From: Tetrahymena thermophila SB210
Lineage: Eukaryota; Ciliophora; Oligohymenophorea; Hymenostomatida; Tetrahymenidae
NCBI RefSeq assembly: GCF_000189635.1
Contig: NW_002476246.1
Location: 1-64,000 of the forward strand
DNA: 64,000 bases
Direction of reading: 5' to 3'
Below, piece by piece: positions 1,421-33,000 of this stretch. A program made the position numbers and the translations under genes. How positions within the stretch are numbered: position 1 is the stretch's first letter; each line of letters begins with the position of its first letter. Under the pieces are notes generated by a model. That model made no database searches. It saw only the letters and a list, made by a program, of their open reading frames with translations, and was not told the DNA's origin.

Positions 1421-4203
1421 ATGGAGAACATAATTTTCATTGGTGATAATCAGTATCAGCTTAGTTTTCAAGCAGATTTCTCTTCAATTCAATTGATAGA
1501 TGTAAAATACTTATAAAATTATTCATTCTTAAATTTTTTTAAAATATAAAAGGAAAAGTACAGTATTTATCTAATCAAATAAAATATGTGTAAAGTTTAG
1601 TTATCAGATGGTAAATTTAGTATAATTAGCACTATTCAAAATGTTTATGAAAACATTTCTGACGTTATTGAATTTTATGAGGTTAATTTATTTTTTAAAA
1701 TTATTATGAAATTTAATTTATTTTCATCCATCAATAACTTATTTATTTTCATCCATCAATAACTTATTTATTTTCATCCATCAATAACTTATTTATTTAT
1801 TTTTTAATTAAATTGAAAAGTTGAATATTTATTTATTAAAACATAGATATCAGTTATATTTGTCTAAGTTATTAATTCAGATTAATTTCAATTTTATAAT
1901 GCTTAGAATTTTAATTAGATTTAAATTGTTGGTGATTCGTTTGCATCCTTAACAAAAAATCATACATATTTCTAATATCTAGTAAATTTTTTAAATGCGG
2001 CTTATTAAATATATTTATTTTAAAATCTAAAATAAGAATTTTCTTTGGGTTTACAACTCCTATTACGAACTAAAATATAATCCTCAATAATGCAAAATAT
2101 AAGTCAAAGCTACCATAGGAAGTATAGTTGATATCAACTTCAAATTCTTCAATGATTTTAGGTTTTATAAAGTAATTTAGTTTCTTTTTTTAAGCAAAAA
2201 CTAAGATTGTATATAAATATTAATGCAAAGGTATTTACCTATTTTGTTAGAGACATATCATCAAGCTTAACGTATTTAAATTCTGTTTAAATAATGTATA
2301 ACATGATTCCAGGTTGCTCTCAGTCTGGTTAGCTATTAAGCTGCTCTTCTTGTTAACCTTATTACTATTTAAAAAATGGGTAATGTGTACCTTCTTCTTC
2401 AGACCATTATTTTGTACAGTAATAAAAAAAACAATTTAATTTTTTAATAAAACTAATTATAGATTGAGCTTGGAGTATTTCAAATTTTTCTTTTTTTAAA
2501 AAACTTTACCTTTTCATTCAAAAATGAATAAATTATGTATTTCATTAAAGTTAAAAATTAAAAGACCAATTCAATTTATTTTTATTTTTGTAAAAGAGGA
2601 TAAAACTGTTAAAAATGCGATTAAACATGCTTGACTTGTAAGGATGCATCTCCCTCTAGTTGTTTAACATGTATTCCTGGTAGATATTTACTGCAGCAAG
2701 ATAACACATGTATCACTTGTGATTAAAATAGTGGATTTTTAATAAATGGTAGAAATTGCACTTGTTAAGATGGATATAGTTATCAAAATTCTAGTTGCTA
2801 AAAATTATACTTGGTCTATAAATCAGGATTCTCTACGGCTTTAATACAATAAATTTAATAATAAGTTAATATTTCAAGTAGGTCTTTATAAGCTACAACT
2901 ACATTTTTAAGCTTTCTTTAAAATATCCTGTCTTAATCTAGCTTTGGGATAGCTATAAACGGTTTAACTTGTATGAAACTGAGCTATTTGATTCTATTAA
3001 ATACTATTCTTCCAAATTAAATTTATGCTCCTTTGAATGAAATAAAAAGTAATCAAACAAAATTTTTAAATTTCATTAAATTAATTTTATTTATTTAAAA
3101 ACTAATTTTTTTATGGTAAAATTTAAATAGACTAATGTCCTCTAAAATAGTACAAATTTTTAAATGTGTTTGAGCCAGCAATTAATTAAAATTAAACTTA
3201 GTTTTAGAATTAGAGATATTCTCAATAAGATATCTCCTTCAACATAATCTATACTTCGGGATAAGCTATTACTTTATCGTTTATTTGCCTTTTTACTTTA
3301 GCATTATTTTATTTTTTAATAGAAAAATGCTAAATTTAAAAGGTTTAATCTGCTTCTAAAATAATTTATGATAAATTAATATCAAGCTTTGCTTTTCAAT
3401 TTTTGTAATTGGGTGGTTTATTTTTGGTTATAGGAATAAATTAATAAATAAAATAATTTTTCTTATAATTTGACAGCAATAGCATTGGGTTGCAAGTCAC
3501 TTACGTAATTCTTTTTGTTAGCTTTGTCTTCTTAGTGTTTTAATAATAATATATATGCATTAATCGAGAAAAATTTCATTAGAATCTGATAAATTTTAAT
3601 GAAATAACTAGAAAAAAAATCTAAAATGACACTATATCTGAATCAAGGCCCTGTAGAAATTTTATGATAATATACTTGATTTACGAATCTGTTTTTGTGC
3701 CTGCCTGTTTTATAACTTTCAGCGAATCTTGGATATCTGCAAGTATAGTTTCAATAATAATTTAATCAGCTTATTTTTGTATATTTATTTACTTGAAGCC
3801 CTTTCATTCTAAGTTGACTAATTTTTATTTTATTATTGATTCACTGTTATGGCTTTCTTTATTTGTTTAATATCTGATACTAAACATTGTAATTTCTAAT
3901 TTTGATATCAATGAAAAAGCTTAATTTTTAGATAACCTAAGTTATTCATTTATAATCACATTTTAATTAATACTTTTTGAGCTTACTATTTACATGATTT
4001 TAAATCTAATTTCAGAGTTTTACTAATTCATAATTAAAAAGAAAAATAAAAACTAAGATTAACTTATGAGCGAAGATAAGTTACTAGGTAAAATCAGTAA
4101 AATAGAAATATCAGAATAAGTATTAGATTAAAATTTGTCCAAAATTTAATAATTAAGTTTGCAAAATTTTAATTACATAGGAATAACAAACTCTAAAAAA
4201 TGA
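1421..4203 (+). CDS. Furin-like Cys-rich multi-span membrane protein, 5'-truncated copy
   Basis: Seven exons: 1421-1501, 1559-1681, 1847-1981, 2037-2171, 2231-2418, 2597-3048, 3131-4203 (TGA). They sum to 2187 nt, 728 residues, with matching phases. Exons 5-6 carry furin/growth-factor-receptor-like cysteine repeats (GCSQSGQLLSCSSCQ, then GQNCQKCDQTCLTCKD and a CITC...CTC stretch). The last exon has about seven hydrophobic segments, e.g. ITLSFICLFTLALFYFLI and YVILFVSFVFLVF, so the C-terminal half is polytopic. It is a paralog of 24508-28023, with identical lengths for four internal exons, but it lacks that gene's first two exons and most of its third, including the hydrophobic N-terminus. The ATG at 1421 is internal relative to the full copy. 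The reading frame is intact, but the missing 5' end makes it a likely partial, possibly dead duplicate. Function unknown; a surface receptor role is only inference. Confidence 0.72.
1716..1790. repeat. Three exact 25-bp tandem repeats
   Basis: Unit atttattttcatccatcaat plus aactt, repeated at 1716, 1741 and 1766 without change, inside an intron of the 1421-4203 gene. The paralog at 25472-25582 has a single copy at the same place, so the expansion followed the gene duplication. Confidence 0.9.
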
Positions 4204-4647
4204 AATTAATAAAGTTCAGAATAATAAACTTTTGTATGAATGAATATTTATCTGTTTTATAAATAAATTTAAATTAAATATTTCTTTCTTGATATATAAT
4301 TAAAATAAATATATAAATATAAGATAATAGATATTTTAAAAAATTTAAAATCATTTTTACTAAATATAAATATGAAATTAAGCAGACTGAATTTTTTTTT
4401 ATAATAAAATATTTTATAAATTTTTAAATTAAAGTTAATGTAATTAATTACAATATTTTTTTCAATATTTACCCATCCCTACATAATTCCAATAAAATTT
4501 AAATAGAAATATTAAGATTTAATAATTAATTTTGCACTATTTTTATCCAAATAAATTTCTAAGAAAAGTAAATTTACTTTTTAAATTTTACAATTTATTA
4601 AACTTTCATAGATTTTTAATCAATATTTCTAAAGAAAAATAAAATAA
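4204..4647. other. Intergenic DNA holding the upstream region of the first LRR gene
   Basis: AT-rich, no ORF. The first ~80 bases still match the 3' flank of the paralogous furin-like gene (28024-28075). The stretch around 4495-4540 is a block conserved upstream of other LRR genes. Confidence 0.6.
4475..4545 (+). promoter_or_regulatory. Conserved upstream block of LRR genes (copy 1)
   Basis: Contains CCTACATAATTCC followed by taaatagaaatattaagatt and taataattaat, about 105-170 nt before the ATG at 4648. The same order of words recurs before five other LRR genes. It may hold the promoter or simply be hitch-hiking duplicated flank. Confidence 0.45.
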
Positions 4648-7600
4648 ATGAATTAAGAAAAAAAATATTTCCACAATTTAGAAGAAGTAATTTTTTATTT
4701 TTGTATGAGCATTATTTAAATTTATTTTTATTAACAAAAAAGTTTTTAAACTCTTCACTTTAATCTCATTAGGCTCTCTTTATAACTCTGTTCTATATTT
4801 ATTCAATTTATTAATGTTTTTTTATATTTAATTTTCAAGTTATTTAGAATATATTTTTCTCAAAGAAATTCTCATTAATAATCAAAAATTAATTTTGATT
4901 TATTGAAATATTTTTTAATTATTTTCAGTTCGACCCATAATCTTTATTATTAATTATATATTTATTTAATATAATTTGATCATTTTTCTTCACTTTTTCC
5001 TTTTAACTAACTCATTAATTGAATATATTTTTTAAAATATTTTAAATGTAGAAAATAATTTAGTGATGAAAATGCATCAGGCTTAGGTTCTGGTTTATCA
5101 AATTGCACTAATCTATCTAATTTGACACTTGATCTAAGGTAAAAGCAGTTTATTTATTTGTTTTGTTTGGATTGTTATATTTTTAATTTAAAAAATTAAT
5201 TTAAAACAATTTGTACTTTTTTAAAAAAATTTATTTATTTATTAATAATTAATTTAATTTATTTTTATCTTTCTATTTAATTGTTTTTGTGTTTTTTTTC
5301 TTTCTCTGCTAATTTAACCCATTTTTACATTTTTAACTTTGAATTTAACTATTTCATATTTTTTCTTCAACATTTAAAAAGTTAGAATAAAATTAATGTT
5401 ATTGGCGCATCAGGCTTAGGCTTTGCTTTAGCAAATTGCACTAATCTCCAAAATTTAACACTTAATCTTCAGTAAAAATAGTTTATTTGTTTTAGATTGT
5501 GATAAAAAAAAATGAATTTAAAACAAACAATATTGCTTTTTTAATTAATTTATTAGCTTTTTATTTTATTGATTTTTTTTTTTTCGATATTTGGAAAGTG
5601 GCAATTAAATTGGTGCAATTGGTACATTAGGTTTATGTTCTGCTTTAGCAAATTCCACTAATCTATCAAATTTGACACTCGATCTTAGGTAAAAACAGTT
5701 TATTTGTTTTGGATTTTAATATTTTTTAATGTAAATATAAATTTAAGACAAAAATTTTTTTAATTTATTTATTTATTAGCTTTTTATTTTTATTCTAATT
5801 ATGTTTTTTCTTCTTCTTTCTTTGTAAATTTATATCATTAAAAAAAAATTTTTTTTGATTATTAATTAATTTGTTTCTTATTTATTATTTCATATTTTTC
5901 TTAATTTTTTCTTACTAACTAACTTTTGAATTATTTTTTTTTCTTCAATATTTAAAAAGTTAGAATAAAATTGCCGATGAAGGAGCATCGGGCTTAGGAT
6001 GTACTTTAGTAAATTGCATTAATCTCTCAAATTTGACACTTTTACTCTCGTAAAAAGAGCTTATTTATTTTGGATTGTTGTGATGTTTTTGAGTATGAAA
6101 AAGAATTTAAAACAACTACCTCTTTTATTTATTTTTTTATATACTAGCTATTATTTGGTTTATTTTTATTTTTTTTTATGTTTATATTTTTTTACTTTCT
6201 TTGTTTATTTAACTCATATTTAATTCATCTTTTTTTATTTCATATTTTACTTCATTTTATCCTTCTAACTAACTAAATTACTAATTAATTAATTTTAACT
6301 TTTTCATCAATATTTAAAAAGGTGGAATGAAATTAGTGCAATTGGTGCATCAAGTTTAGGTTCTGCTTTAGCAAATTCCACTAATATCTCAAATTTGACA
6401 CTTGAACTTCAGTAAAAATAGCTTATTTGTTCTTTGATTTTGATATTTTTTAATATAGAAATTAATTTAAAACAACATAGCTAACTCTTTTTATTTATTT
6501 ATTTATTAGCTTTTTTACTTGATTTATTTTAATTTTTAATTCTGGTGTTTATTTCTTCTATCTTTGTTAATTTAACACCATTTTTCATTTAAAATATTTC
6601 TTTTATTATCAATTTATTATATTATTATTTCAGATTTTTTTCATTCTTACTAATTTTTTATTTTTTCTAATATCTAAAAAGGAACAATATAATAGGTCCA
6701 ATTGGTGCTTCAGGCTTAGGTTCTAGTTTAGCAAATTACACTAATTTAACAAATTTGGCACTTGATCTTTAGTAAAAACAGTTTATTTGTTTTAAATAGT
6801 GCTATTTTTAAAATAAAAATGAATTTAAAACAATACAGCTGACTTTTTTAATTTATTTTTTTTATTTATTTAGATTTTATTTTTGATTCTTTGTTAATAT
6901 AACTTATTTTTTCATTTGAAACTTTTATATTATTATTAATGAATTTGTTTCTTATTGTTTGATATTTTTTCATTACTTTATCCTTCCTTCTAACTATTTA
7001 GTTTATAATACTTCTTTTTTAATTATTTAAAAAGTAGAAATTAAATTGGTGACGAAGGTGCATCAGGTTTAGGTTCTGGTTTAGCAAATTGCACTAATCT
7101 CTCAAATTTGACACTTAAACTTGAGTAAAAACAATTTTATATTTGTATTGATAAAGATTTTTAAAAAAATAAATTTAAAACAAAATAACTCTTTTAATTA
7201 ATTTACTAATATTTTATTTAATCTATTTTTCTTTTTGATTTTTATCCTGCTTCTGTTTTTTTTTTTGTTAATTTAACTCATACTTACATTTTCAACTTTT
7301 GCTTTTTAAATTATTTTCTTATTTTTGCTTCATTTTTTTCCTTCTAACAAATCAATTTAATATTTTTTCTTTTATATTTAAAAAGGTGGAATGATATTAG
7401 TGCTACTGGTGCATCTGGCTTAGGTTTTGCTTTATCAAATTGCACTAATCTCTTAAATTTAACACTTGATCTTCAGTAAAAACAGCAATTTAAAAAAAAA
7501 TAAATTTAAAACAATATGGCAACTCTTTTAAAATATTTATTTGCTTTTATTTGATTTAATTTTATTTTCAATATTATTATGATTGTTTTTTTTCTTATTT

Positions 7601-8381
7601 ATTAATTTAATTGATTTTTTTTACATTTTCAACTTATGCTTTGAATAATAATTAGTACATTCCTTATTATTTCATTTTTTTTTATTTTATTTTTCTTTTA
7701 GCTAGCTAACTAATTAAGTAATTATATATTTATTCTTCATTATTTAAAAAGGGAAAATGAAATTGGCGATGAAGGTATATTAGGCTTAAGTTCTGCCTTA
7801 GGAAATTGCAAATATCTCTCAAATTTGACACTTGATCTTAGGTAAAAACAGTTTATTTGTTTGGATTATTATATATTCGAAAATAAAAATGAATAGTATA
7901 ACCAATAACTCATTTTTTAATTTTCAACTTTTTTTGATTATTAATGAATTCGCTTCTTATTATTTCATTTTTTTTCTTAATAATAAATTAATATTTTTCT
8001 TCAATATTAACAAAGATGGAATAAAATTAGTGCAATTGGTACATCAAGCTTAGAATTTGGTTTAGCAAATTGCAGTAATCTCTAAAATTTGACACTTGAT
8101 CTTCGGTAAAAACAGTTTATTTGTTTTGAATTATGATACTTTTTAACATAAAAATGAATTTAAAGCAATATAATTTTCTAATTTTTTTATTTTATTTATC
8201 AAATTTTTACTTTTATAATTTTATTTTTATTTATTAATTTAAATATTTTATACTATTTAATTTTTTATACATCCTAAATTATATTAAAAGTGCAAATGAA
8301 ATCGATAAATCATTATTACTGAAAGTTAAAAGATAATATCTTAAATAAAAAAGATTAGTTGTCTTTGAATTTTTCTAATGA
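4648..8381 (+). CDS. LRR cassette protein 1 (10 LRR exons)
   Basis: Thirteen exons: 4648-4686, 4743-4789, 5052-5138, 5382-5471, 5599-5688, 5960-6049, 6322-6411, 6682-6771, 7035-7124, 7386-7475, 7752-7841, 8016-8105, 8291-8381 (TGA). They total 1074 nt, 357 residues. Exon 1 gives MNQEKKYFHNLEE; exon 2 gives FLNSSLQSHQ plus a short hydrophobic end. Each 87-90 nt exon codes one 29-30 residue LRR of the RNI-like kind, near NQIGDEGASGLGSGLANC followed by TNLSNLTLxL. The tail exon (ANEIDKSLLL..., KRLVVFEFFQ) is shared by the family. The exon 2 donor has moved: relatives read CTGAGGTATA where this gene has CTCTGTTCTATA, so GTTCTA is probably used, which keeps phase 2. No signal peptide or membrane span; presumably a cytosolic scaffold or recognition protein. 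Function unknown. Confidence 0.85.
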
Positions 8382-18678: not shown

Positions 18679-21600
18679 TCAAAATACTTTTTTAAAGATA
18701 ACTAATCTTTTTGATTTAAGACACTTACTTATTACTTCGAATTTTTATGATTCATTCATTGAGCTAAAAATTGAATAACAAATTAGTGTAAATTTTAAAT
18801 AAATATCAAAATAAAATAAACTTTTTAATTAAAAATTATTTCTTAAATTAATAAATAAAATATATATGTGGAATAAAAAGATAAAAAAATAAATCAAATA
18901 AAAGCTATCAAATAAATTCAAAGAGCTTTTTTTTATATTCATTTTTATAGTTTAAAATATCAAAATCCAAAACAAATAAACTGTTTTTACCTAAGATTAA
19001 GTGTCAAATTTGAGAGATTAATGCAATTTGCTAAAGCAGAACCTAAGCCTGATGCACCCATTACACCAATTTAAGAAGGGCTAAGCGACTCGAGTGGGCG
19101 AGTCGGAGGGTCTTAGCAGTGATATCGGGGGTTCGAATCCTATACCGCCCCCTTTATTTCGAAAAATTCCATGTAAAAAATGTGAATGTTACCAGCGGTC
19201 TCCTTGGTAGGAGGGAAGGGCCAAATCTGATAGGTGGTAAAGAGGAGGCCCCATTCTGAACAGAAGATCTGGAATACAAATGGGAAGCGAGCATAATGCG
19301 TAGTCAAATCATGGAAGATTAGTAGAAATGCCATTAGGGTGTAGGTGACCCTTCCCTTCTAGTATATTACCCACAATTATATATAAATAAATTGGTATAC
19401 GTATAATAATAATGTATAAGTAATTATATATAGGGCCCTATCCCGAGTGCATGTAACCATGTGCGAGTATGTATGTATGTATGTACACCAATTTAATTGT
19501 TACTTTTTAAATATTGAAGAAATAATATATCATTAAATAGTTAATTAGAAGGAAAAAATGAAGAAAAAATATCAAATAGTAAGATTAATTAATTAAAAAT
19601 AAAAGCAAAAGTTGAAAATAAAATGATGAGTTAAATTAACAAAGAAAGAACAAAAAAAAGAAAGCACAATAAAAAGAAAAAGAAAAACGAGCTTTATTAT
19701 TTTAATTAGTTTTATAATTAAAAATATCACAATCCAAAACAAATAAACTGTTTTTACCTAAGATTAAGTGTCAAATTTAAGATTTAAATGCAATTTGCTA
19801 AAGCAGAACCTAAGCCTGATGCACCTTCATCACCAATTTAATTGTTACTTTTTAAATTTTTAAATATTGAAGAAAAAATATATAATTAATTAGTTAATTA
19901 GAAGGAAAAAATGAAGATAAAATATGAAATAATAAGATAAATTAATTAAAAATAAAAGCAAAAGTTGAAAATAAAATGATGAGTTAAATAAACAAAGAAA
20001 GAACAAAAAAGAAAAATTAAAAAGAGCTTTATTTTTTTAATTAGTTTTTATAATTAAAAATATCATAAACCAAAACAAAAAAACTGTTTTTACCTAAGGT
20101 TAAGTGTCAAATTTTAGAGTTTAATGCAATTTGCTAACGCAGAACCTAAGCCTGATGCGCCCATTACACCAATTTAATTGTTACTTTTTAAATATTGAAG
20201 AAATAATATATCATTAAATAGTTTATTAGAAGGAAGAAATGAAGATAAAATATGAAATAATAAGATAAATTAATTAAAAATAAAAGCGAAAGTTGAAAAT
20301 AAAATGATGAGTTAAATTAACAAAGAAAGAACAATAAAAAGAAAAAGAAAAAAGAGCTTTATTGTTTTTAATTAATTTTTATAATTAAAAATATCACAAT
20401 CTAAAACAAATAAACTGTTTTTACCTAAGATTAAGTGTCAAATTTGAGAGATTAATGCAATTTGCTAAAGCAGAACATAAGCCTGATGCACCCATTACAC
20501 CAATTTAATTGTAACTTTTTAAATATTGAAGAAAAAATATGAAATAATAAGATAAATTATTTAAAAATAAAAGCGAAAGTTGAAAATAAAATGATGAGTT
20601 AAATTAACAAAGAAAGAAAAATAAAAAGAAAATAGAGCTTTATTGTTTTTAATTAGTTTTATAATTAAAAATATATCACAATCCAAAACAAATAAACTGT
20701 TTTTACCCAAGGATAAGTTTCAAATTTGAGAGATTAATGCAATTTGCTAAAGCAGAACATAAGCCTGATGAACCCATTACACCAATTTAATTGTAACTTT
20801 TTAAATATTAAAAAAAAAAAAATCATTAAATAGTTAATTAGAAGTTAAAAATGAAGAAAAAATATGAAATAATAAGATAAATTAATTAAAAATAAAAGCG
20901 AAAGTTGAAAATAAAATGATGAGTTAAATTAACAAAGACAAAACAAAAAAAAGAAAGCACAATAAAAAGAAAAAGAAAAAAGAGCTTTATTGTTTTAATT
21001 AGTTTTATAATTAAAAATATCACAATCCAAAACAAATAAACTGTTTTTACTTAAGCTGAAGTTTCAAATTTGAGAGATTAATGCAATTTGCTAAAGCAGA
21101 GCCTAAGCCTGATGCACCTTCATCACCAATTTAATTTTTACTTTTTAAATATTGAAGAAATAATATATCATTAAATAGTTAATTAGAAGGAAAAAATGAA
21201 GATAAAATATGAAATAATAAGATAAATTAATTAAAAATAAAAGCAAAAGTTAAAAATAAAATGATGAGTTAAATTAACAAACAAAGAACAATAAAAAGAA
21301 AATATAGCTTTATTGTTTTTAATTATTTTTTATTATTAAAAATATCACAATCCATAACAATAAAATTGTTTTTACATAAGGTAAAGTGTCAAATTTGAGA
21401 GATTAATGCAATTTGCTAAAGCAGAACCTAAGCCTGATGCACCCATTACACCAATTTAATTGTTACTTTTTAAATATTAAAGTAAAAATATATCATTAAA
21501 TAATTAATTAGAAGGAAGAAATGAAGAAAAAATATGAAATAATAAGATAAATTAATTAAAAATAAAAGCGAAAGTTGAAAATAAAATGATGAGTTAAATT

Positions 21601-30079: not shown

Positions 30080-33000
30080 TCACCACAAGAAATATTTTGT
30101 AAGGACTACTAATCTTTTTGATTTCAGACACTTGCTATCCATTTTCAATTTTAATGAATAACTCATTTTATTTGAACTTTTTATATGAATTAGAGTAAAT
30201 TATTTTAAAAAAATTAAATTTAATAAAATTTTTAAATTAATAAATTAAAAAAACATCAACAAAATAAAATCAAATAAAAAATTAAAATAAATTAATAGAG
30301 TTATGTTATTTTAAATTCTTTTTGTATTAAAAAAATATCCTATCAAAAAAAAATAAACTAGCCATTTTTACACAAGATTAAGTTTTAAATAATAGAGATT
30401 ATTAGCATTTGCTAAAGCAGAGCTTAAGCCATATGCACCTTCATCGCCAATTTGATTTTTACTTTTAAATATTGAAGATAAAAAATATAATAAAAAATTA
30501 ATTAGTTAGTTAATTTGAAGGAAAAAATTAAAAAATTTTCAAATAATAAGAAATTAATATATATATAATAACAAAGAAAATAGAAAAGCAAGCAAAAATA
30601 AAATTTTATCAAGTAAAAAGATAATAAATAAATAAATTAAAATGCTAAAAAAGTTATAAATTCGTTTTTATATTCAAAAATATTGCAATCTAAAACAAAT
30701 AAACTATTTTTACCAAAGATAAAGTGTCAAGTTAGAGAGATTATTGCAAAGTATTAAACTGGAAATTAAACTTAATACACCTTCATCACCAATTTAATTT
30801 TCACTTTTTAAATATTGAAGAAAAAATAAATGTTTAATTTTTAGAAGGAAAAAATGAAGTAAAAATATGAAATTATAAGAAATATTTAATTATTAATAAA
30901 ATTAAAAGTTAAAAATTAAAAAATAGGTTAAATTAACAAATAAAAAAAAATAACAAACACAACACAACAGAATAAAAAAAAAATAAATCCAACAAATTAT
31001 AATAAATCGATCAAAAGATTTATACTATTTTAAAATAATATTACTATTAAAAAATATGACAATCTCAGATAAATAAACTGTTTTTACTCAAGATAAAGTG
31101 TCAAATTAGAGAGATTAGTGCAATTTGCTAAAGAACAACCTAAGCCTTTTACACCTTCATCACCAATTTAATTAATTCTTTAATATTGTAGATAAATATA
31201 AAATTGATTAGTTAATTACTTAGAAGGAAATTATGAAGAAGAAATATGAAATTAATTAATAATAAAAGTAAAAGTCGAAAATAAAAAAATTTGTTAAATT
31301 AACAAGCAAACAAAGGAAAAAATAAATAAATCAAATAAATTAAAAGAGTTAGTTAGTTATTAGTTAGTTATATTATTTTAAATTAATTTTTATATTTAAA
31401 TAAACTATTTTTACTTTAGAGAAAGTGTCAAATTTGAAAGATTAGTGCACTTTTCTAAACTAGAACCTAAGTCCATTGCACCAATTGCGCCAATTTAATT
31501 GTCCCTTTTAAATATTGGAGAAAAGTATATATTCAATTTGATATTTATAAGGAAAAACAAAATAGTAAGATATGATTAATTATTAATAAAAAGAGTAGAA
31601 ATTAATTGTAAAAATAAGTTTAATTAGAAAATAAAATAAAAAACACAATAGAATAAAAAATAAAAATAAATCAAATAAAAGCTAATAAATAAATAAATTA
31701 AAAAAGTTAGTTAGTTTGTTATATTGCTTTAAATTCATTTTTATATTTAATAATATAACAATCTAAAACAAATAAGCTGTTTTTACTAAAGATCAAGTAA
31801 CAAATTTGAAAGATTAGTGCAATTTGCTAAAGCAGAAGCTAAGCTTGATACACCTATTGAGCCAATTTCATTCAACCTTTTTATATATTATAATAAAAAT
31901 ATATAATTAATAATTTAATTTATAATATAGGCAAAATTTCTAAATGTAAAAACGAGTAAAATTAATAAAAAAAGTAAAAAATAACACAAATATAATAAAC
32001 AATAGAAATAAATCAAATAAAAAGCTAGTAAATAAATTAAAAAAGATGGATTATTTTAAATTTTTTTATATTAAAAAATATCATAATTCAAAACTAATAA
32101 ATTGTTTTTACCAAAGATCAAGCTTCAAATTTGAGAGATTAATACAATTTTCAAAAGCTGAACATAGGCCTGAAGCACCATTTGCACCAATTTAATTATC
32201 CCTTTTTAAATATAAAATATATATGATTAATTAGTTAGTTACAATGAAAAAATGAAGAAAAATATGAAAAAATAAGAAAAGAATTAATAAATAATAAAAG
32301 TAAAAGTTGGTTGCAAATAAAAAATATGTTTAATTAAAATTTAAAAAATTACATAATAAAAAAGAAAAAAAATAAATCAAATAATAAGCTAATAAATAAA
32401 AATTAAAAATTTATTTAGACAAATTTTTTAATTTTTTTGACAGAGTCTTTTTAAAAATATATTGTCTATTAAAAAAAAAAAAGAAAATGAATGTGTTTAA
32501 ACACAAATATAAATAAATGAATAAATAAAAATAAAAAACAATAAAAAACAAAAAAAAATATTAATATAAATAATTTAAAATATTATAATTAAGATGTATT
32601 CTGAGTGCATATTTATATGTGCGAGTATTTCTATTCTATTCTATTCTGCTCCAATTTAATTTTTACTTTTAAAAAATTGAAAAAAAAATGTATTAATTTT
32701 AGCAAAAAGGAAAAAATAAATGAAGCAAAAATATAAAATAGTAAGAAATAAATGAATTGATAATAAAAAAAATTGGAAATGTGAATTAAATATAAAAAAG
32801 AAGAAAAAAAACATAATAAGTTTTATTATTTAAAGTTCATTTTATATCTAAAAAATATCATAATCCAAACTAAATATACTATTTTTACTTAAGACCAAGT
32901 GTCAAATTTGAGAGATTAGTACAATTTGCTAAAGCAGAACCTAAGCCTGATGCACCTGTTGTACCAATTTAATTGCTACTTTTTAAATATTGTAGAAATT

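Follow-up and report, generated by a model that had tools for sequence, protein, structure and literature searches.

The stretch of DNA analysed here (the window) comprises the first 64,000 nucleotides of contig NW_002476246.1 of Tetrahymena thermophila SB210 and opens with 31 C4A2 telomere repeats. In a telomerase (TERT) exon from this genome, 135 of 137 aligned residues agree with the T. thermophila TERT of PDB entry 6d6v, and the two mismatches are the first two residues, at the margin of the alignment. We take the genome to be the somatic (MAC) genome of this organism. Within the window, an exon of an LRR gene is interrupted by a SINE-like retroposon (Table 1). A sequence-only reading had placed this element at 19075-19483 with a perfect 13-bp duplication, and these coordinates are exact. 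As it also claimed, removal of 19075-19496 (422 bp) from the interrupted exon (512 bp) leaves an LRR exon of exactly 90 nt. The B box that it noted is exact at 19130-19140, the body is indeed not AT-rich (42% GC in the element vs 19.5% in the window), and the (TATG)n tail reads (TATG)4 at 19468-19483. In the LRR exon's own frame a TGA is met inside the insert, and thus the LRR gene is broken at this copy unless the insert is spliced out.

Table 1. Features of the interrupted exon, of a second insertion in the window, and of related loci
Feature	Position or locus	Strand	Remarks
Interrupted 90-nt LRR exon	18991..19502	- (coding strand)	adjacent LRR exons found with nhmmer
LRR exon target sequence			...CACCAATTT
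5' target-site duplication TACACCAATTTAA	19062..19074	+	13 bp, exact match to 19484-19496
SINE-like retroposon	19075..19483	+	409 bp, antisense to LRR gene; one of 40 listed copies
B box GGTTCGAATCC	19130..19140	+	exact match to GGTTCGANTCC; putative internal pol III promoter
3' terminal motif GAGTGCAT-GTAACC-ATGTGCGAG	19445..19467	+	potential stem-loop; common to LINE-type 3' ends
(TATG)4 tail	19468..19483	+
3' target-site duplication TACACCAATTTAA	19484..19496	+	identical to 19062-19074
LINE-type 3' end	motif 32603..32625, end 32603-32650	+	loop ATTTAT, TATTC-type tail, same LRR exon site
Further copies with SINE 3' end	C110/L052; C41/L075
Head-only loci	L048, L049, L050, L051		L050 is a chimera
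Tail-only locus	C181:13111

When the element was shuffled base by base, a B box arose in 6 of 20,000 sequences. The sequence-only reading had added an A-box-like sequence, but the strict A-box pattern is without a match in the first 80 bases, and the B box alone remains. Its description of the element as tRNA-derived is unsupported: ARAGORN predicts no tRNA gene in the element and Rfam gives no tRNA match at E values up to 10, and a tRNA origin of the head was therefore dropped. As RNA, the whole element folds no better than its shuffles (z -0.89). The element contains no TTTT, which taken alone is weak evidence because 4,076 of 20,000 shuffles lack it too. A T-run lies within 25 bp 3' of the duplication in 37 of 38 copies. 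Together, the missing TTTT and the T-run beyond the duplication lead to the hypothesis that a pol III transcript would end in target sequence. Close to one head-only copy, in L051, there is a tRNA-Asn gene at positions 920-994 of the locus.

A whole-genome search with 19075-19496 found 40 copies, including that of the window, at 97-100% identity (36 full-length, four partial or gapped); given that 40 of 53 first-look candidates were scored, all copy counts are lower bounds. The 36 full-length bodies (390-393 nt) differ by a mean of 0.71% and a maximum of 1.8%, and no clearly older copies were present among the genome-search matches. The element has the general traits of a SINE, being shorter than 1 kb (409 bp), non-coding, multi-copy and spread over many contigs, and, unlike the autonomous REP discussed below, it does not encode a reverse transcriptase. 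The sequence-only reading had made its case depend on further copies; these exist in the MAC, where the SINE 3' end is present in at least 42 copies, and its SINE-like insertion in a somatic coding exon is confirmed as a young multi-copy retroposon. It had considered that the element escaped elimination, landed recently or inserted directly in the MAC. The 0.71% divergence supports a recent burst, escape from elimination fits best of the three with at least 42 copies in the MAC assembly, and direct insertion into the MAC at so many loci seems unlikely.

Informative sites in the 36 bodies are reticulate and occur in many combinations, a pattern in the alignment that suggests that copies have exchanged sequence through recombination, gene conversion or template switching. 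Several partial copies (L048, L049, L051, L052 and L075) run into unrelated sequence, and their breakpoints possibly represent a DNA-elimination boundary cutting through the copy.

Many copies matched the search query up to its last base, although the query extended 13 bases beyond the element; the flanks show that these copies occupy the same place in the LRR exon. All 38 copies that are readable at both ends lie at the same LRR exon position, each with a 12-14-bp duplication; the two others of the 40 are interrupted by an N gap (L038) or a contig end (L040). L009 and L009b are a tandem duplicate pair with a common flank (at least 97% over 300 bp), which leaves 37 independent insertions. The duplication starts 2 nt before a CACC core in 34 of these and 3 nt before it in three. 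In the coding direction, the target covers exon nucleotides 7-19 within the codons for NQIG, which we take to be the conserved start of the LRR repeat here. Empty targets are abundant, with 6,179 matches in the genome at up to 3 mismatches vs 4 for the reversed control. Relative to a baseline of 386 empty targets in the loci examined, the element favours TT as the first pair among the five bases preceding the core (33/37 vs 230/386, p 0.0003) and avoids TG as the last pair (2/37 vs 107/386, p 0.0015), the p values being uncorrected for four tests.

The same site is also occupied by LINE-type 3' ends. The motif GAGTGCAT-N(2-10)-ATGTGCGAG has 166 exact matches in the MAC (79 + 87) and none in the reversed control. 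By their loop, 27 among 100 matches listed, of the 166, are of SINE type; about 42 of the 166 are SINEs and roughly 124 are not. We read 35 distinct non-SINE ends of these roughly 124, drawn from the best matches, from 20 sampled places (one of which was a SINE) and from other loci. Their tails consist mostly of TATTC, CATTC or AATTC units, and by a strict test 34 of the 35 are followed by the LRR target, as are 39 of 40 distinct SINE ends; the one LINE-type end that fails (L074, 4 mismatches) nevertheless resembles the LRR exon. When the loci examined were searched for variants of the terminal stem under relaxed conditions, re-offset versions of known exact matches and a few chance or LRR matches were returned. 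The window itself holds a second, independent insertion of this type at 32603..32625, within another LRR array. In L037, a LINE-type end on the reverse strand (~1706-1930) is nested at the 3' duplication of a SINE, which indicates that insertion regenerates its own target.

In the 450 bp upstream, eight of the 35 ends show a 5' junction at this same position of the exon, seven have only an intact LRR exon, and 19 have no LRR exon half; a ninth junction, in L037, belongs to the SINE itself. Matching 12-13-bp duplications flank five of the eight elements (the first element of L056, L059, L062, L065 and L078), those of L065 and L078 being unusual variants. The flanks do not match in the other three (L050, L055 and the second element of L056), all of which belong to one short family, and these may reflect later recombination. 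This second short family (L054, L055 and L056; ~225-240 bp in L055 and L056) carries a LINE-type 3' end and occupies the same LRR site. In L050, also at that site, the SINE head is joined to the body of the second short family and its LINE-type end; this chimeric structure suggests RNA template switching or recombination.

Tt.REP, a non-LTR retrotransposon of Tetrahymena reportedly described by Fillingham in 2004, is our candidate for the source of these ends. According to the parts of Xiong 2019 (PMC6564038) drawn on here, REP is a MIC-limited LINE, 76% of REPs are neighbours of LRR units, and the MAC keeps the 54-bp 3' tail of REP 169 times. In position, number and LRR association, the LINE-type ends look like such retained REP 3' tails. 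The ends that we read join the LRR exon, whereas the same parts of PMC6564038 name introns, not exons, as REP targets. The SINE 3' end is common to the LINE-type ends at the same target, and REP is thus the putative partner of the SINE.

The target specificity could also be real while the machinery comes from another MIC LINE with the common 3' motif, an alternative that we think rather unlikely. A LINE with another tail does exist in this genome: L043 (C134:178500-187500, reverse strand 3606-7983) carries an open ORF1 (526 aa, with a weak CCCH finger below Pfam's cut-off) and an open ORF2 (844 aa, containing the sole RVT_1 match that was reported for this genome). It lies in the MAC, while REP and other TEs are called MIC-restricted in the portion of PMC6564038 used here. 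L043 was set aside as the partner LINE, given its different (TATC)n tail and that no LRR exon site was seen there. Against a machinery other than REP, it is REP that the cited account reports beside LRR units, and its 169 retained tails are comparable in number with the 166 motif matches, about 42 of which are SINEs (PMC6564038, as far as drawn on).

A different question is whether the common site was chosen at each insertion or inherited from a single ancestral LRR-exon insertion multiplied by exon shuffling, unequal crossing-over or gene conversion. Shuffling does multiply LRR exons, as described in the consulted sections of PMC6564038, one tandem duplicate pair (L009/L009b) is present, and the reticulate sites are as expected from gene conversion. 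However, the 37 insertions have 24 distinct duplications, and in 25 of the 37 the duplication is unlike the commonest one, in some by length only. The two flanks of a copy match over 12-14 bases (mean 12.9), whereas flanks swapped between copies match over a mean of 9.1; conservation of the target explains why 16% of 1,406 swaps still reach 12 bases. With the comparison restricted to the 20 copies whose target is unusual, the mean for swaps is 8.0, and 12 bases are reached in 20 of 740. The private duplications and the swap control point to separate insertions. Where flanks align over at least 300 bp, they are ~79% identical on average, against 99.3% for the bodies, and the element is also present in a divergent LRR subfamily (L035). 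Tails, which range from 12 to 84 nt among the copies read, and the extra bases at 5' junctions (0-4) vary as well. We consider an inherited site very improbable, and exon shuffling as its source is largely refuted by the private duplications.

LINE-type target-primed reverse transcription typically leaves variable tails, target duplications, 5' truncation and additional bases at the 5' junction. The SINE copies have such traits, with duplications in 38 of 38, tails of varying length and two 5'-truncated copies (L037 and L039) that retain duplications. That all readable insertions (38/38, 37 of them independent) are found at one site is what characterizes a target-specific non-LTR element. The SINE-like element integrates target-specifically, at one position of the LRR exon, a point that goes beyond the sequence-only reading.

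Alternatively, the SINE might insert at random and be seen only in LRR exons, other copies being lethal or eliminated. LRR genes are redundant, and copies elsewhere may be lost as internal eliminated sequences; yet selection would not confine the duplications of all 38 readable copies to identical nucleotides and keep introns and other parts of the exon free of insertions, and 34 of 37 duplications begin 2 nt before the core; we judge this reading very unlikely indeed. An assembly artefact or germline contamination deserves almost no credence: one assembly was examined, some copies are on short contigs and the L038 copy holds an N gap, but the 40 copies are at many loci, including contigs of 0.9-1.9 Mb, and the contig of the window starts with telomere repeats.

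From the observed family with its fixed site, private duplications, variable tails, truncated copies and common 3' motif, we think it quite probable that a young non-autonomous SINE-like retroposon and a REP-type LINE home to one LRR exon position, and that the SINE is kept in the soma. In this scenario, the SINE would be inserted via target-primed reverse transcription by an enzyme that a REP-type germline-limited LINE provides. This enzyme would nick the coding strand two bases past GGTG, and the 3' stem-loop and tail of the element RNA would be used for priming. In known LINE/SINE pairs, the enzyme recognises the 3' end of the RNA; by analogy, the common terminal motif suggests such recognition here. 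During MAC development, LINE bodies would be removed and their 3' ends left behind, while the short element would be retained. The LRR exon family, with its thousands of near-consensus sites, may serve as a tolerated safe haven, as rDNA does for R1/R2.

A more elaborate version, which we offer tentatively as a possible though doubtful extension, is a self-perpetuating homing cycle split between two nuclei, in which the MAC SINE is transcribed into an RNA that ends in target and the LINE gives only the enzyme. The SINE kept in the somatic nucleus would there be the source of a pol III RNA, and transcription would stop in the T-run of the target exon just 3' of the insertion. The target-sequence end of this RNA could then pair with the next nicked LRR exon. 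If true, LRR exon arrays would be a niche for retroelements, and their expansion and breakage would shape a fast-evolving gene family.

From the perspective of DNA elimination, the two kinds of element offer a contrast within one genome: their target site is identical and their 3' ends are similar, but one kind is apparently eliminated whereas the other persists. Among the titles and abstract openings searched, a scope that leaves Repbase and most subscription papers outside, we found no description of a Tetrahymena SINE, and a word search of Hamilton 2016 (PMC5182062) does not find 'SINE' (singular). The putative SINEs of the Paramecium germline are likewise short non-autonomous ciliate retroelements, but they are annotated as non-coding repeats inside other elements, and no target specificity is described for them in the sections of PMC5405496 concerned.

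Fixed-site targeting is better known for elements living in ribosomal RNA genes, and R1-type elements make a short target duplication. R1/R2, Utopia and NeSL resemble the elements studied here in using a strict site in multicopy sequence. The targets listed for target-specific non-LTR elements in the parts of PMC5035012 and PMC4640811 consulted are rRNA, tRNA and snRNA genes, spliced-leader exons, microsatellites, telomeric repeats and transposons; protein-coding exons are not among these listed targets. Tt.REP is closer in its association with 90-bp LRR exon/intron units and in the 54-bp 3' tail kept in the MAC, but it is autonomous, MIC-limited and placed in LRR introns, and a SINE partner and an exact exon site are absent from its description, as far as PMC6564038 was drawn on. 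With the present data, the association of REP with LRR units becomes a nucleotide-exact target in a protein-coding exon, together with a SINE-like partner that is new to the literature covered.

The closest precedent, by analogy, is ingi/RIME in the RHS genes of Trypanosoma, a LINE and its short partner at an RHS hot spot (PMC7563717, in the part used). The likeness, as that part describes it, lies in the pairing of a LINE with a short non-autonomous partner, a hot spot in the coding region of a large multigene family, and interrupted genes. The two systems differ in host group, gene family and target, which in Tetrahymena is a short exon repeated thousands of times; in Tetrahymena, moreover, the soma seems to lose the LINE bodies, and the short element combines a B-box head of its own with a body unmatched elsewhere. 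Alongside ingi/RIME, the Tetrahymena elements would be a second example of retroelements that home to a family of protein-coding genes, here in a host that is genetically tractable.
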